Assembly (NCBI RefSeq): GCF_018873765.1
Contig: NC_057925.1
Coordinates: 62,504,470-62,568,469 of the forward strand
DNA from: Telopea speciosissima
Lineage: Eukaryota; Streptophyta; Magnoliopsida; Proteales; Proteaceae
Direction of reading: 5' to 3'
Length of the DNA: 64,000 bases
Of the stretch, positions 34,049 to 41,713 are shown piece after piece. The notes below the pieces were generated by a model. It made no database searches. It was not told the origin of the DNA and saw only the letters and a program-made list of their open reading frames with translations. Position numbers and translations under genes: made by a program. How positions within the stretch are numbered: position 1 is the first letter of the stretch; every line of letters starts with the position of its first letter.

Positions 34049-34554
34049 CTCTCTCTGTCTGTTCTACAAAATTATAAGCTTTTTCCCTTTCTCTTCCGAC
34101 GATTTCAACCTATTGGTCTTCTAATCGATAGAGCCATGGTGAATTGGTGAGGGAGGGATGGGAAAAATTTCCGAAAGAACTCTGAGATGAGATGAGATGA
34201 GATGGGTTGGCATCTGCTATCCGTGTTTCTGTGGGAAATTGCGTGTCTTTCGGTATATGTTAGATTTGTTTCCTTTCAACCTCCTCATCTTCTCTGCTGA
34301 TGATGTCTCTGATGACTCAATACCATGTCAACGCTGCAAGTTTTGGGCAACCCAAGGGCGGCGTGTGCGTGTGAAATTTGCCACTCAACTTAAGGGTGGC
34401 TTGCGGCATACCCTCAGTAACATCTAAGAGGTTGGTTCCGTGTGTCCAGCAGTTTCATTAGGGTGCGTTTGGTTGCGTAAATCCTTTGGATGTTGTCTGA
34501 TTGGAGATTGTCATCTATTTGAGTTACCATCAAATGAATCGTAATTCCATAAAA

Positions 34555-34745
34555 TAAACTGTTTGGTTGCCATGATTCTGTGACATGATTCTTTTGGATA
34601 AACTGTTTGGTTACCCTGAGTCTGTCACTTGGATTCACCCTGAATCTATCTGAAATACTGTTTGGTTATCCTGAGTCTGTGAATTAGAATCAATTTAAAT
34701 CTATCTGAAATACTGTTTGGTTACCCTCACTATGTCAGTTGGAAT
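34555..34745. repeat. subterminal tandem repeats of the Harbinger-type element
   Basis: Copies of ACTGTTTGGTTA(C/T)CCTGAGTCTG start near 34557, 34602, 34657 and 34712. The last three are spaced exactly 55 bp, each followed by AATCTATCTGAAAT. Subterminal repeats carrying the TIR core GTTTGGTT are candidate transposase- or Myb-binding sites. Confidence 0.8.
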
Positions 34746-35342
34746 TATGTTTGTTTTTTTTTTTTGTTTTTGTTGATTTTAATACATGGCCCTCTTTTCT
34801 TACCTTTTTAAATTTAAAATTAAAATGCCTAGACTAAGAAAAATAGAAACGAAATGAGCATAGATGGAAAACCAGTGGCCAAGAGAAATCTAAAATCACT
34901 TGATACTTTGGAGATAAAAAAAAAAAAGAAAAAAAGCTCCTATATTAACAGGGGAGAGATGCACTTTTGCTTCATTGTTCCACCTACACCACTTCAACTA
35001 CAGCCTAATGGTTTGGTCTTTCATGCTAAGGTCCTAAAGAAAAAATGAGATAATTTCTTTTAACTTCCTATAGTTGATGAGTTAAATTTCTGAGTTTACA
35101 ATTGAATCAAATACGTACCAGATAAATATGCACGCAATTAAATGCCCATTAAGCTACCACGATTACACAAAACAATTAACATAAAAGACCATCAAAATAC
35201 CACCCATCCATCCTCTATTCGGTTAGACCCATTCAATCTAGGGTTACAAATATAGAGATACATTGTTTCACAAATTTTAATTTAATTACATGAGTCACAT
35301 GTTTTGGGCATACACCCCCTCTCAACCCCCTCCCATACTATT
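34746..35342. other. element interior, no gene seen
   Basis: AT-rich sequence between the subterminal repeats and the GRF gene's stop codon. No frame is supported. Confidence 0.5.
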
Positions 35343-35901
35343 TCACTTGTTAAGATTAAGTGTTTTGACAGCATCAAGTAGCTCCTCCCATGTCTTAGTA
35401 TGTTGTTTGGCATCTTTAATTTTTGCTGTGAGGTATCCCATCAGATAGTCCTTGGATTGACATGGTGTTGGTGAGATGGTTGGTGCATCCATGACATTAT
35501 TCCTTGGTACCTGATTTGAAGATGAAGATTCTCCCTCATCTATGAATTTAAACCACCCATAACCATTATTTTTGCCCTATATACAAAAAAAAATGATATT
35601 TGTAAATATACGGAGACCAACTGTGTTACAAATGAAAATTAAGAAAATAAATGATGAGACACCATACCGAGGTGGAACGTGGGCAACACCAGAAATCTCG
35701 TCCTACAGAAGGGCCTCTAGTGCATCTTCTAACCTTGCACTGCCCTTTGCCACAGTCACACATTCGGAAGTGGTTGGCCCACATAAAAAATGATTGGTGG
35801 ATAGGGCACTTGTAGAAACTTCTGCCCGGATTAGTTTTGGTTTTGGAAATTAATATTATACATTGCTCACCACAAATGTCACATCTAGCCACAATGTCCA
35901 T
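35343..35901 (-). CDS. GRF-type zinc-finger protein encoded in the transposon
   Basis: Two exons on the minus strand: 35901-35668 and 35576-35343, with donor CTCG|GTATGG and acceptor TATAG|GGC, phase 0. They give an intact 155-residue protein. The N-terminus has CDICGEQ, then GRSFYKCP and FMW, a GRF zinc finger. A second finger follows: CDCGKGQCKV, GRDFWCCP and, across the splice junction, GYGWFKF, which supplies the conserved W-F end. The C-terminal third is predicted helical (KDYLMGYLTAKIKDAKQ). GRF fingers bind single-stranded DNA or RNA in several repair proteins, and similar short proteins occur in plant transposable elements. The correct splicing of a conserved domain suggests it was under selection until recently. 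A role in transposition is inference. Confidence 0.8.
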
Positions 35902-37010
35902 CTAGCCAGTTGATCAATATCCCACTAGATCTTGATGGCCTTCGACGCTAGAATCAGTGCATGAGATTGTAACAATTAAAAAAATGGGCATTTTTTGGGA
36001 AATGTAATGAGTTAATGGATTACAGATGACTATAAAATGATGTGCCGTTAAAGTTTGGTAAATTACAGTGAAAGTACATGGGAGGAGAGAAGAGTATCTG
36101 TCTTCCCTAGTCTTCACATTTGGTCGTCTACTTCCATATGAGTATTCATTTTGAAACACAACAGCCCACATGTACAAAGCACGGCATGAGTTGCCCAAGA
36201 AACCCAAAAGAGAGAGAAAAGAGAGAAGGACAGAGAGTGACCATACAGTTGGGCTCCACCTCAAAATCATAGAATAAGTAAAATGGGGAAATAAGAGACA
36301 AGGTTTCAATGACTCATTAATTCCTACTATCTGTTGAAGAAATCTCCATTAATGTTTAGATTCTATTTTGAAGATATTGGATCCATGAAAATAGAACCTT
36401 CAAACTCATCCCAAAAAGTTAAAAATTAATATAGTATGCATAGAAACTCCAAAGTATTTGAAAAACAATTCTAGCAATGTCACCAGAGACAGATCACCGA
36501 AAATCCATACCTGCAGAGAAATATTCTAAAACACATCTTTAATACAGAAAAGTGTGGGTTAGGCTTATCTATGACCCTTCTTAATATAGAAAAGTGTGGG
36601 TAGACGAACTAACATGGACCAAAAACTGAACATATACCAAGTTTCAATGCATCCAAACTTAGTGAGCTGTAAATTACCACAATTTAATGGAATGCCCATT
36701 AAACCACAGAAGCTATATCTTATAACAAAATTCACAGAAAATATAATTAAAACAACAAAATTGCATCCATAAGTATGAGGTGAAATTAGTCTAAATGCAA
36801 AGGCCAGCAAGTATAAGATGAAATGGATCTATCCAACAAAACATAAACATCTTCAACTGTTTAAAACTATGCTAAACCATCCAAAACAAAGCTAAACCAA
36901 ACAAACATCTATGGCTCCAAAGCTAAACCAAACATCTATCCAACAAAATATAAACATAAAAACATCCATTCAATTAGTTCATGCTTAAAACTATGGATCT
37001 AACCACATCT
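35902..37010 (-). other. element interior between GRF and Myb-like parts
   Basis: A long open frame at 35914-36309 on the minus strand has no recognisable domain and is probably not coding. Direct repeats of ACAGAAAAGTGTGGGT-like sequence (about 36545-36600) and AAGCTAAACCAAACA-like sequence (about 36880-36935) are present. Confidence 0.4.
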
Positions 37011-37544
37011 TCAACTGTTCTGGTTCACTTGACAAATATGGTGTATGAATTTCGGCTTGTCTTCGTCACTTGCAGTCAAGAAAAGACTAGCCACGTCCTT
37101 GTCTTTCATTAAAGCTATTTTTGCTTGGACTTTCAGTAAGCCATCAATGCCATCAACCTTATCAACTGCATCAGCTACACTTTGTGCAAGTTCGGTCCGT
37201 GTGATGTTTTTGTTGACTAGGTTATCTATGGCAGCAGCTATTCTTTTCAAAGGACTTGCAATTTTTTCAGCACCCCCTTTCTTTTTCTTCTCTTTACCAG
37301 TTGTGACATCTGCATGCGGCCGCCCACGGGTACGACTGCCACTCCCACGATCACGACTGCCACTGGCAATGGGAGTGGAATGAACATCTTCATATGGAAA
37401 GGAAGTGTCAACCACATTGTCATCCATACTTGGAGATTGAACCATATGGTCATTGTGAACATAGTCAGCTGGGTGCATAGCATCTTCTCCTGTTGCTATC
37501 TCATTTCCTAACCAAATCGCAAGGGCCATATGGATGGGAAGCAC
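37011..37544 (-). pseudogene. Myb/SANT-like accessory protein, C-terminal half
   Basis: The minus-strand frame encodes a start within the end of a Myb/SANT-like region (IWLGNEIATGEDAMHPADYV), an acidic linker, a basic nuclear-localisation-like patch (GKEKKKKGG), and a helical tail (LLKVQAKIALMKDKDVASLF). This is the layout of the plant L10-interacting Myb-like proteins and of the Myb-like ORF carried by Harbinger elements. The DNA-binding N-terminal half is absent. It follows the transposase fragment directly on the same strand, so an internal deletion has joined the two. Confidence 0.7.
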
Positions 37545-37545
37545 T

Positions 37546-37980
37546 TTACGTGACTGCCAATACTTCTGTTCCTTTTTCTGTCACAATCATATGTGAAACT
37601 ACTTGGTTCTTAACATTATGGCCAACTGTGTGTAAAAATATCACCACTTGTTCCTCTACTTGCACTAATTTGTTGTCATACAGTAGACCCCTTTGTCGCA
37701 GCATGTCACATAAGCTAGAAAAAGCCCTCTTGCTCAATCTTATCAAGTTTCGACACGTCCTCTCTGAACCATCAATAATTAGTTGTGTCTCAGTAATGCC
37801 ACGGAGTCTCTGAATACGGTAAGGCTCTTTATGAAGGAACATTTTTGAATACTTCTCCACTGCTATTGCAATAGCAGTAGCCGCCAAGATGATTACTGTC
37901 TGGATGGTTTTCTTGTCAATCTCACCGTCACTATCACTCTCTATTTTCATGTCATCATCAGTATCTCGATCATAATCCAT
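37546..37980 (-). pseudogene. HARBI1-like (ALP1-like) transposase, N-terminal half
   Basis: The frame encodes an acidic start (MDYDRDTDDD) and then IIDGSERTCRNLIRLSK, FSSLCDMLRQRGLL and EEQVVIFLHTVGHN, the N-terminal helical domain of plant Harbinger transposases and ALP1-like proteins. The protein stops shortly after KNQVVSHMI, where family members continue to the DDE nuclease. The catalytic part is therefore missing. About 144 residues remain of a usual 350-450. Confidence 0.85.
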
Positions 37981-40530
37981 TTATAAGCTAAGATGATTAC
38001 TCTCTTTCACCTATCTCTTAAATATTCTTGAATTACAAAAAAAAAAAAAAAAAAAAAAAAAATCGTTAATACAAAGCAATGTGCATACTTGATGTAACAA
38101 GAAAAATCTACAAAAGAAGAAATAAGTAAAAAACAATCTTCATAAAATTGATTGCTATATCTAATAAAAGCAGGCCAGCCTGCCTCTTTGACAAAATTTG
38201 TCAAGATTGTGGCCCCTCCCCTATTTATCTAATTAGATTGGTTGAACTCTCAATCTGAGTTTTAGAAGAGGTATCCTATACTTGGAGATCTATCCCTTAT
38301 GCTATTAACTAGAGTCTCCTAAGATTCTCCCATTATTATTATACATAATAATAATGGCTTCCTATAAACCTCTCAAGGTGGAATCAATTGGGACTCAGAA
38401 TTTTAGAGGAATGTAGCCATCAAAGTAACTTGATGAAAATCTTCTTTATCACATTATGGATGGATCTACCACAAACTGGAAAAAGTCTAGCATTCCTCTC
38501 TTTCTAAATGGTCCAATAACTAAGGTTTTTATAAAAAGAATCCATGCCTAAACTACATTGATTGCAGATAAAACCAAATATAGATATCTCTAGAACTTCC
38601 AATAACGATACTACATCTCAATCATAAAAGTAATAGTTGAAAGAAAACAAGCTGGAGTACATCTAAGACAATGGTTAAATAGTTTAGGAAAACTGTCCGA
38701 ATCAAATAATTTTACAAATGCCCATCCCCAAGGAAAACTGTTTCATTGCATTAGAATTTACTTTCTGAATTTCCAATTCACAGATTCAATCATGAAATGG
38801 CTACTTGTTTCCCAATCGATGTACATTTTTTTTGTTAGACAATCAATGTACATTTGAGGTTCAAATCCGAGCAATACAGCCATACAAGAAATATCACTGG
38901 AAACGAAGTTTAAGAGAGGAAAATGAGAATGCCCATTAATCTACATGAAGAATATTTTCCTATTCCTTCCTGGATTACTCAAGTTCAAGCACTTTTTTTC
39001 CCTTTGTTTACTTGTTTCTTCTAATTTTCATGGAGAAATTTCATTGAAAGATAAGTAATTGAAAAAATAAAATAAATAGACAATATTATGTGGGGGATTA
39101 AGTGATTCTGCAATTATGTTTCTCCTCAAATATGTTTGGGTCTCCAACAACTTTAGACCTATGGAATAGAAATCATTTAAAGAGCGAAAAACACTAGCAA
39201 TATGACAGTAGTAAGTTATGAGTTACAACTATTGATCCAGCAACCCAATGCAGGGCCTCACGGTGTAAAGAAGTTGGAACCAGTGTATCAAGCGGCAAGA
39301 TTGAATGTGGTAGGCTATACTTTTGATGTACTAGCATATTTTCATCCAGACAATCCCATTATCAGGTATAGTTATGATGTACTAGCATATTTCCTCTGTC
39401 TATAAAAAAAATTACTATAATAATGCATGTGAGGAGGACAGTGTACACCTTCGGCTCAGAGAACCTTATCCAAGAAAACAAAAACAGAAAATAAACAAGG
39501 AAAAGAAAAAACTAACTGTGTGAACTGCAACTCCTTCCCCCCCCCCCCTTCAAAACAAAAAATTCAATGAACATTTTCATACAAGCAATAGGTAGGCACA
39601 AGAAAGTGGTGAATCAACCACAAGCAGCAAAAGAGAAGGATCAACTCCACTTCAACTCATTAATAGTTATCTCAATACACTATCATCCCTTTGTCCCCTC
39701 ACTCCCCGTCGAATTGGCTTTCAAAGTTTTTGGATTTAGTAACCTCCTCCCAATGACACTTTTTTTTTGTGTGTGTGTGGGAGGGGGGGGGGAGATGAGG
39801 TAGAAGAAAAGAATATAGAAAGTAACTGAATCCAAGAAACTAAAAGACTTGCTTTCTAATTTTCGACCTGAAACTCAAATCTAATAAATTTCTAATTCGC
39901 TTGCAATTTTAGCAACTCCGGTAAAAGCATTCCAAGTACCCTAAAAAAAATTCAGGAAAAAAATACTGAATAAACACTAAATGGACAAGTATTTGGACCT
40001 GGTTTTGACAGATTTATGCCTACAATAACCACTTGGACTGGAAGTTACAGAAGCATGAGGGCATGGGTACCGAAGCATCAATCTATGCAATTACAGAATA
40101 CAACTCAGGTGAACTAAAACAGTACAAAGAGAGAGAGAGAGAGAGAGAGTAGTTCCCTAAGCTAGCTAGGGGCAAGGTAGTCAAATCCACAAGCAAATAA
40201 ATATAAGAGGAATTAATGGAGGATTCAAGGACTGAAACAAGGGCGTGGGGTGGGCAGACCATGTGACCCTTTTCACCATTAAAAGAAATAAAGAGAAATT
40301 CTATTTATAATTTAAAAAAAAAAATTGAAAATACCCCAAACTCTCTCTCTCCCTATGTGCTATTTATTTAATCGAAAATAGAGCATTTTACACTAAGACA
40401 GACTCGGCTACTACTAGTTAGCATCTAGGCTGGTTGGTGGTGTATACCCATCACTCACTTCTGCTTCTTCGTCTGGTCTTTTTCTACTAATACTACTTGG
40501 GAGTCTTGGACTTCTATGGCCATGGGCATG
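37981..40530. other. element interior, no gene seen
   Basis: Holds a long A-run (about 38037-38062), a direct repeat of GATGTACTAGCATATTT (near 39326 and 39376), a C-run (about 39537-39549), a G-run (about 39783-39792) and a GA run (about 40130-40150). No supportable frame. A minus-strand frame at 40414-40665 is antisense to the captured carboxypeptidase fragment. Confidence 0.45.
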
Positions 40531-40539
40531 GGTATGTGT

Positions 40540-40660
40540 AAAACAGAGTACTCTGCCTATGTCTCTGTTAATAAAGTCTCTGGCAGAGCTCTCTTCTATT
40601 GGCTCACTGAAGCTGTTCATCTTCCAGAATCCAAACATTTGGTCATTTGGCTCAATGGAG
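40540..40660 (+). pseudogene. captured serine carboxypeptidase-like exon fragment
   Basis: The plus-strand frame reads [20 protein letters not shown], then [19 protein letters not shown], ending at a usable donor GGAG|GTCATT. This is the N-terminal SCPL signature that precedes PGCSS and the active-site region, and the exon ends just before PGCSS as in plant SCPL genes. No upstream or downstream SCPL exons follow. It is a fragment inside the transposon and cannot make an active enzyme. Confidence 0.8.
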
Positions 40661-40785
40661 GTCATTCTCCCTCTCTCTGTTTGTGTTGTTGGTGTGTGTT
40701 TAGGGGAAGGTGGTCCTACTGTTTGTTTTGTTTTTTTAATTATTTTTTTGAATGTGTCTAACTGTTCTGCATTTTTCTTGTTCAG

Positions 40786-40899
40786 ATTAATAAACTACAA
40801 TCTATTTTTCGTCAATGGGAACATGTACGTTTGAATGAAGGAGAGCACATCCATCTCATGAAGGAGTTGTTTGTTGGTTGTGAAAGCATTGAATGGCAG
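40786..40899 (+). pseudogene. captured SYP61-type syntaxin exon
   Basis: A 38-codon block between a clean acceptor (TTCTTGTTCAG) and donor (CAG|GTATTA) encodes INKLQSIFRQWEHV, then a KELFVGCESIEWQ end. I recognise it as the N-terminal helical domain of the trans-Golgi syntaxin SYP61 (family pattern DKLQSTFxxWE... KEL... C.SIEWQ). It is open in phase 0 and lies 125 bp downstream of the carboxypeptidase fragment in the same direction, so the two could be spliced into one chimeric transcript. No other SYP61 exons are present. Identity is recalled from the family, not searched. Confidence 0.7.
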
Positions 40900-41099
40900 G
40901 TATTACAGCCGAAGGTGAAAAAATCACCTGTTTTTTGAATTTCTAGCATATTTTGGTTCAAACTGTTGTAGACTGCCACTTAAGATTGGATGTACAAAGG
41001 CAGAAACGAATTAAAGACTAAATCAAAAATCCAGGTGTAAAAACTCACCTGAACAGGAACCCTAGACAAATCTTCGGTTTACACTTGAAAGAAGAACAC

Positions 41100-41698
41100 C
41101 CAAATTAGAACTAAAACCCTAAAAAACAAAAAATACAAACTGCAAACTCCATGTTCTAGGACAGAGAAACAGAGAGAAAGAGAGAGCACAGATGCAAAAT
41201 GGGTATGAAATAGCAGAGAGGGAGTGACAGAATCCGACAGAGAGAGATGAAAAGAACAATGAGATTTAGGAACGACATACCCAGGGAGCGAGAGAATCGC
41301 GAGACACTCCTATTCTTTCGAATGGTAGCAGAGAGGGAGGTATAGAGTCTGAGAGTGAGATCTGATCTTGCTCTCTTCTTCCCTTCGCGAGACACTCCTG
41401 TTCACCCTTCTCTTCTCAGTCGCGAGAGAACGCAAGTCGCGATAGCCAGGTTTTTCGATTTAGGGCACATAGGTATGATCCTCTTGGATTATCCTATTTA
41501 TACCTAGGCTGTAATTTGTAATCCAAATCTGAGTTCTCCTATAAAGGTGAACTCAGATGAATGATCTAATATAGTGTAAAATGTAGAATTACATAATTCT
41601 TGTCGTCCGTTGGAATTAGGATACCAAACGGTTTAAAAAATTCAGAATCATGGTCCAACAGAATGATGTTCGGTCGATTTACACAACCAAACGCAGTC
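41100..41698. promoter_or_regulatory. right subterminal region of the Harbinger-type element
   Basis: GA-rich sequence with repeated CGCGAGACACTCCT (near 41298 and 41386) is followed by the right terminus. It lies upstream of the minus-strand transposase frame and could be its promoter or leader. Confidence 0.4.
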
Positions 41699-41713
41699 TT
41701 AACCTTTTGCTTT

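Follow-up and report, generated by a model that had tools for sequence, protein, structure and literature searches.

Plant PIF/Harbinger transposons such as PIF, Ping/Pong, MtPH and PePIF1 generate 3-bp TTA or TAA target duplications, end in GTTTGGTT-type terminal repeats and combine a DDE_Tnp_4 transposase with a second gene of the Myb/SANT type. Coding elements are described with two genes in the portions consulted of PMC2836001, PMC4482050 and PMC6327408, and gene order is reported to vary between lineages in the Medicago work (PMC2213677, portion consulted). Extra genes are on record for HarbingerS, which carries a SET gene, and for TET-bearing Harbingers of rust fungi, the latter having TA duplications and no Myb/SANT protein according to the sections consulted of PMC12730594. 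Here we describe a 7.2-kb element at positions 34461-41698 of a 64,000-nucleotide stretch of the Telopea speciosissima genome (contig NC_057925.1, 62,504,470 to 62,568,469 of the forward strand; hereafter, the window), whose relatives frequently carry a third gene, coding for a protein with GRF zinc ribbons.

The two-gene description, usual rather than strictly defining, does not cover these elements, and their lengths of about 8.9 and 6.9 kb exceed the average consensus of about 4.1 kb (PMC4482050, portion consulted). With HarbingerS and the TET-bearing Harbingers they share an additional gene in a Harbinger-type transposon, whereas the gene itself and the hosts are different (PMC12730594, same sections). 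No GRF-bearing PIF/Harbinger element was found in the literature searched, most subscription journals lying outside its coverage. We read the window element as a deleted copy of a three-gene PIF/Harbinger transposon in which GRF serves as a third factor of transposition or maintenance, a statement to which, taken as a whole, we assign a probability of roughly 0.6.

The window element and its fuller relatives

A sequence-only reading of the window had recognised a PIF/Harbinger element from matching termini and flanking TTA, and both features stand: positions 34461-41698 hold a single element whose ends agree, in inverted orientation, at 19 of 22 bases, with TTA as the duplicated target on both sides. 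Its features are the following.

34458-34460 (no strand): target-site duplication, left copy (TTA)
34461-34482 (+): left terminal inverted repeat, matching the right one at 19 of 22 bases
34559-34722 (+): CTGTTTGGTT-like subterminal repeats (at most one mismatch), starting at 34559, 34603, 34658 and 34713
35343-35576 (-): GRF exon 2, end of the second ribbon and C-terminal region, stop included
35577-35667 (-): GRF intron, GT..AG
35668-35901 (-): GRF exon 1, first GRF ribbon and most of the second
37011-37583 (-): Myb/SANT gene, C-terminal part; Myb domain lost with the internal deletion
37584-37589 (no strand): internal-deletion junction relative to L069, L070 and L071, 6 bp common to both sides
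37590-37980 (-): transposase, N-terminal part; catalytic DDE_Tnp_4 domain missing
41677-41698 (-): right terminal inverted repeat
41699-41701 (no strand): target-site duplication, right copy (TTA)

The window's own genome (822.9 Mb) was searched with both 200-bp ends of the element, and the best 40 of 608 left-end and the best 40 of 69 right-end candidates were scored; 40 of 44 left-end and 40 of 45 right-end rows were used, four and five short secondary matches being dropped. Ends were paired when both lay in the same orientation less than 12 kb apart. Among the matches listed, the 40 left-end and 40 right-end places gave 19 paired elements, the window included, a degree of pairing beyond chance, and the two termini do belong together, as had been supposed. 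The 19 elements span 1.1-9.0 kb, ten of them exceeding 8 kb. A GRF match was listed in 14, a Myb match in 13, a transposase match in 14 and all three in 11, so that relatives holding the three genes between shared ends exist, and the proposal that GRF sits inside the element as a third gene is borne out. For one of the 21 left ends without a pair, that of an older relative (L078), the right end was located on reading the locus.

The fullest picture of the family comes from three copies of 8.9-9.0 kb (L069, L070 and L071), in which aligned blocks of more than 500 bp are 92-97% identical and the flanking DNA differs from copy to copy. All three genes lie on the minus strand, in the order transposase, Myb, GRF in the direction of transcription. 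In L069 the transposase frame matches PF13359 (DDE_Tnp_4) with an E value of 2.1e-15 and the Myb/SANT gene matches PF12776 (Myb_DNA-bind_3) with an E value of 1.1e-13, both genes being of the kinds that typify PIF/Harbinger elements; by mutual comparison, none of the three copies keeps a full-length unbroken transposase frame. The window element is a non-autonomous, internally deleted copy of this ~8.9-kb three-gene family. Relative to L069 and L071 it has lost about 1.7 kb between the N-terminus of the transposase and the C-terminus of the Myb protein. The junction of a transposase half with a Myb half that the sequence-only reading had noticed is real, but it was produced by deletion, and because the two remnants lie in different reading frames no fusion protein results.

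Target sites and ends are of the PIF/Harbinger type. TTA flanks the window element on both sides and TAA does so in L069 and L078, a TTA and a TAA were seen within two bases of the edge read at the flanks of L070 and L071, respectively, and a copy of a second family (family 2) sits in a TTAA context that leaves its duplication ambiguous by one base. The short terminal inverted repeats match at 19 of 22 positions in the window and L069 and at 21 of 22 in L078 and family 2. Further inside, the window, L069, L078 and the family-2 copy all have CTGTTTGGTT-like repeats about 99, 143, 198 and 253 bases from the left end, a spacing common to family 1 (the window and L069-L071) and family 2 although their transposases are only 59-61% identical. 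These repeats may be protein-binding sites.

A 1,080-bp element, L072 (C4:65515253-65516932), keeps both ends and matches the window in two blocks at 97-99% identity, with no GRF, Myb or transposase match among those listed; the ends have thus also spread as copies resembling miniature inverted-repeat transposable elements.

GRF genes beside transposases of two clades

Placement of GRF in a first clade of transposases (clade 1) was scored from the best 150 of 192 GRF matches and from 113 of 113 Myb and 109 of 144 transposase matches, the remaining 35 transposase rows, of 20-26% identity, being left to a survey based on DDE_Tnp_4. Each GRF search was scored for no more than 150 candidates, and decay has affected many of the loci. 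The listed matches group into 93 transposase loci. At least 56 of them have GRF on the same strand no more than 8 kb downstream, with Myb downstream as well in 52 of these, and in none of the 93 was a listed GRF found upstream or on the opposite strand at that distance. When positions were drawn uniformly at random over the 11 large contigs, a null that ignores the clustering of repeats, the mean at 8 kb was 0.05-0.07. When the distance was extended to 25 kb, the listed GRF matches were downstream at 63 loci, upstream at none and on the opposite strand at four. The transposase-GRF distance ranges from 0.9 to 7.3 kb, and Myb is nearer to the transposase than GRF in all 41 loci that have Myb together with a near-complete GRF exon 1.

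This arrangement extends well beyond the window's subfamily, outside which most clade-1 transposases share about 50-65% identity with the query. On C1, a family-2 element holds GRF between its ends; a C5 copy 96-98% identical to it has the same left end and different flanking DNA there, where the two were compared. In L078, with TAA on both flanks, GRF, Myb and transposase are all inside the ends. GRF was accordingly found within element ends in three lineages, namely family 1, L078 and family 2.

A second clade emerged outside clade 1. The DDE_Tnp_4 survey (best 150 of 153 transposase rows, best 148 of 149 PF06839 rows) found GRF downstream of 10 of 81 transposase matches outside clade 1, in nine cases at 0.67-0.83 kb. 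Queries from clade 2 were then taken through their best 150 of 151 matches, 120 of which fall outside clade-1 loci; at least 44 of these 120 exon matches are followed within 8 kb by GRF on the same strand, in 42 cases within 1.1 kb, against a random placement mean of 0.29. GRF accompanies 30 of the 39 closest matches (at least 65% identity) and 5 of the 40 below 60%. Gene order appears to differ from that of clade 1: in the survey, nine loci had Myb on the same strand about 2.1 kb upstream and one had it downstream on the other strand, and the order Myb, transposase, GRF was seen at C4:34495815 and C9:43392520. As these are the only two loci with all three genes listed, the clade-2 order rests on few loci.

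The GRF gene and the captured host DNA

The sequence-only reading had described an intact, spliced GRF gene. Two exons, a GT..AG intron and an open frame are indeed present, but in the window copy a Tyr (exon 2, 35343-35576) stands where L069, L070 and L071 have a Cys that is probably a zinc ligand of the second ribbon. Two stretches of the protein match PF06839, with 51.5 bits against a curated cut-off of 25.9, and the clade-2 protein reaches 69.7 bits against the same cut-off. In the clade-1 and clade-2 genes examined the intron falls at the same codon boundary with a GTATG donor, which follows the codon after the Ser-Thr of CCPxST (L069, L073, L075, L081). Pfam matches consist of GRF ribbons only, with no chromatin or methylation domain. 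A profile built from five GRF proteins, three of them represented by exon 1 only, was run against PDB and retrieved the tandem GRF of NEIL3 (7jl5, E value 1.5e-8; 7omk, 7.6e-7), followed by a weak match to an apurinic-site lyase, 5u6z (0.42), which we take to be APE2. The element protein resembles NEIL3 in having two GRF ribbons in a row, both spanned by the 1.5e-8 match, and differs in being a small stand-alone transposon protein rather than part of a glycosylase.

Selective constraint was estimated from the ratio of nonsynonymous to synonymous substitution rates (dN/dS). GRF exon 1 gave 0.12-0.31 in comparisons of family-1 copies (window, L069-L071) with L073, L074 and L075, and the transposase gave 0.19-0.34 (L069-L071); by this measure exon 1 is constrained like the transposase. 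Exon 2 is less constrained, with 0.34-0.41 between family 1 and L073 and L074. Taken over all identity levels, GRF and transposase identities correlate (Spearman 0.58 for 45 loci, and 0.66 for 28 non-independent pairs drawn from eight loci).

Other GRF proteins are common in this genome. PF06839 was dropped as a genome query for the element gene, as it retrieved mostly other GRF proteins, and the element GRF proteins were used instead. Of the 148 PF06839 matches used, 127 do not follow a listed Harbinger transposase. One that was read (L082:441-878; C9:57096900-57098500) encodes a different protein of 145 amino acids with one GRF ribbon and, by eye, a coiled coil and a hydrophobic C-terminus; it has four equal-score matches on C3, C6 and C9 and probably belongs to another repeat or gene family. 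Plant GRF families may contain further mobile kinds.

Host DNA has been picked up on the other side of the element, where the adjoining carboxypeptidase-like and SYP61-like pieces that had been reported were both traced to donor-like loci.

40124-40740 (+): serine carboxypeptidase-like capture with upstream region, first exon (about 148 bp missing) and intron start; donor-like locus C3:14432388-14433154
40743-41000 (+): SYP61-like capture with one exon and parts of the neighbouring introns, borders by eye; donor-like locus C11:38231144-38231407

The carboxypeptidase-like piece matches Peptidase_S10 (E value 1e-10) and is 90-93% identical to the C3 locus, upstream DNA included. The SYP61-like exon matches STX6_10_61_N below the Pfam cut-off (E value 0.021), and the piece is 92-96% identical in DNA to the C11 locus (92% over 265 columns). 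Splicing was rejected as the source of the ~148-bp gap, both edges of which show TACT and whose missing DNA is coding by eye. From the 28 captured-piece matches 18 were used in the paired copies, places of the host genes and their paralogues being dropped, and a piece was listed in 16 of the 19, in one of them the SYP61-like part alone. Both captures look recent. Neither was found at the L078 locus, and most simply both joined the window's subfamily after its split from L078; loss from L078 is a possible alternative. The stretch 38148-41494 of the window as a whole has no match in L078, and the two pieces explain only part of it.

Origin and possible role of the GRF gene

Since it also stands beside divergent transposases of clades 1 and 2, GRF is best seen as an old gene of these elements, and we hold it very probable that it is a genuine and long-standing one. 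The sequence-only reading had instead viewed the whole as a Pack-type derivative, in which GRF would be a host gene picked up like the carboxypeptidase-like and SYP61-like pieces. Pack-TYPE transposons do carry captured coding DNA between their ends, as 16 of the 19 paired copies do, the family evidently picks up host pieces, and GRF proteins exist outside the elements, only 21 of the 148 listed PF06839 matches being downstream of a listed transposase. Pack-TYPE elements are, however, recognised by having no transposase match (PMC8903248, portion consulted), while 14 of the 19 paired copies, the window among them, have one listed, and fuller copies carry both transposase and Myb genes. The window element is thus a shortened member of a family that has its own transposase, not a typical Pack-TYPE transposon. 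GRF is not a recent capture: it accompanies transposases of about 50-65% identity and a second clade, with regular order and strand and a common intron position, its exon-1 dN/dS resembles that of the transposase, and the one non-Harbinger GRF read was a different, single-ribbon protein. We consider a Pack-type origin of GRF very unlikely, and the capture of a gene of no use is disfavoured because GRF shows sequence constraint; a single capture long ago would agree with the reading favoured here. The captures are confined to the carboxypeptidase-like and SYP61-like pieces. The earlier observation is thus confirmed overall and its interpretation partly supported. That GRF belongs to a separate repeat adjoining or nested near Harbinger elements would fit the variable transposase-GRF distance in clade 1 and is hardly credible in view of its position between terminal repeats in three lineages, between shared ends in 14 of 19 paired copies among the matches listed, and, within 8 kb of clade-1 transposases, never upstream or on the opposite strand.

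As to function, the three genes of the fuller relatives share one strand and code for a DDE transposase, a Myb/SANT protein and a protein with tandem GRF zinc ribbons. As known for PIF/Harbinger elements, the Myb protein binds the ends and positions the transposase, which moves the element by cut and paste. The tandem GRF of NEIL3 binds single-stranded or forked DNA (PMC9266487, portion consulted). By analogy, the element's GRF protein might bind single-stranded DNA that becomes accessible during excision or gap repair or at replication forks, and could serve a replication-linked increase of the element. One subfamily has additionally acquired pieces of two host genes. A role of GRF on single-stranded DNA in transposition is a tentative proposal, to which we give slightly less than an even chance. 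The broader view, that transposase, Myb/SANT protein and a stand-alone tandem-GRF binder of single-stranded DNA form a three-component machine, old and widespread in flowering plants, with GRF required at an excision, repair or copy-number step for which relatives with two genes rely on host proteins, seems to us doubtful at present. GRF might instead act in anti-silencing or expression, shielding the element from host methylation or small RNAs. Plant Vandal elements encode a protein regulating their own silencing, SET and TET genes occur in other transposons, and GRF is the last gene wherever all three are listed; yet Pfam detects only GRF ribbons, with neither a chromatin nor a methylation domain, and the solved structures closest to it belong to a DNA glycosylase and an apurinic-site lyase, so that we regard this role as unlikely.

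Several results weigh against reading GRF as a third factor of transposition or maintenance. Among the matches listed, no GRF lies downstream within 8 kb at 37 of the 93 clade-1 loci, none within 25 kb at 30, and at four it is on the opposite strand within 25 kb; in clade 2, 76 of the 120 matches have no listed GRF downstream within 8 kb and four have it in another placement, and there the association is known from position beside transposase exons. The GRF gene may not be essential, or parts of the clades may lack it. Exon 2 is under weak constraint when compared with L078 and L079 (dN/dS 0.50-0.83), close copies give 0.25-1.0, as in decaying copies, and the synonymous rate (dS) is saturated in several far comparisons, including most with the clade-2 locus L081. 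Below 70% transposase identity the identities of GRF and transposase are uncorrelated (Spearman 0.13, 33 loci), and co-descent is therefore not demonstrated at depth. A fold prediction for exon 1 alone was unusable (predicted local distance difference test score, pLDDT, 41.7).

The recurrence of a third gene in two clades nevertheless suggests a component missing from the two-gene picture of PIF/Harbinger transposons. Some of the GRF proteins annotated in plant genomes may, moreover, be encoded by transposon rather than host genes.

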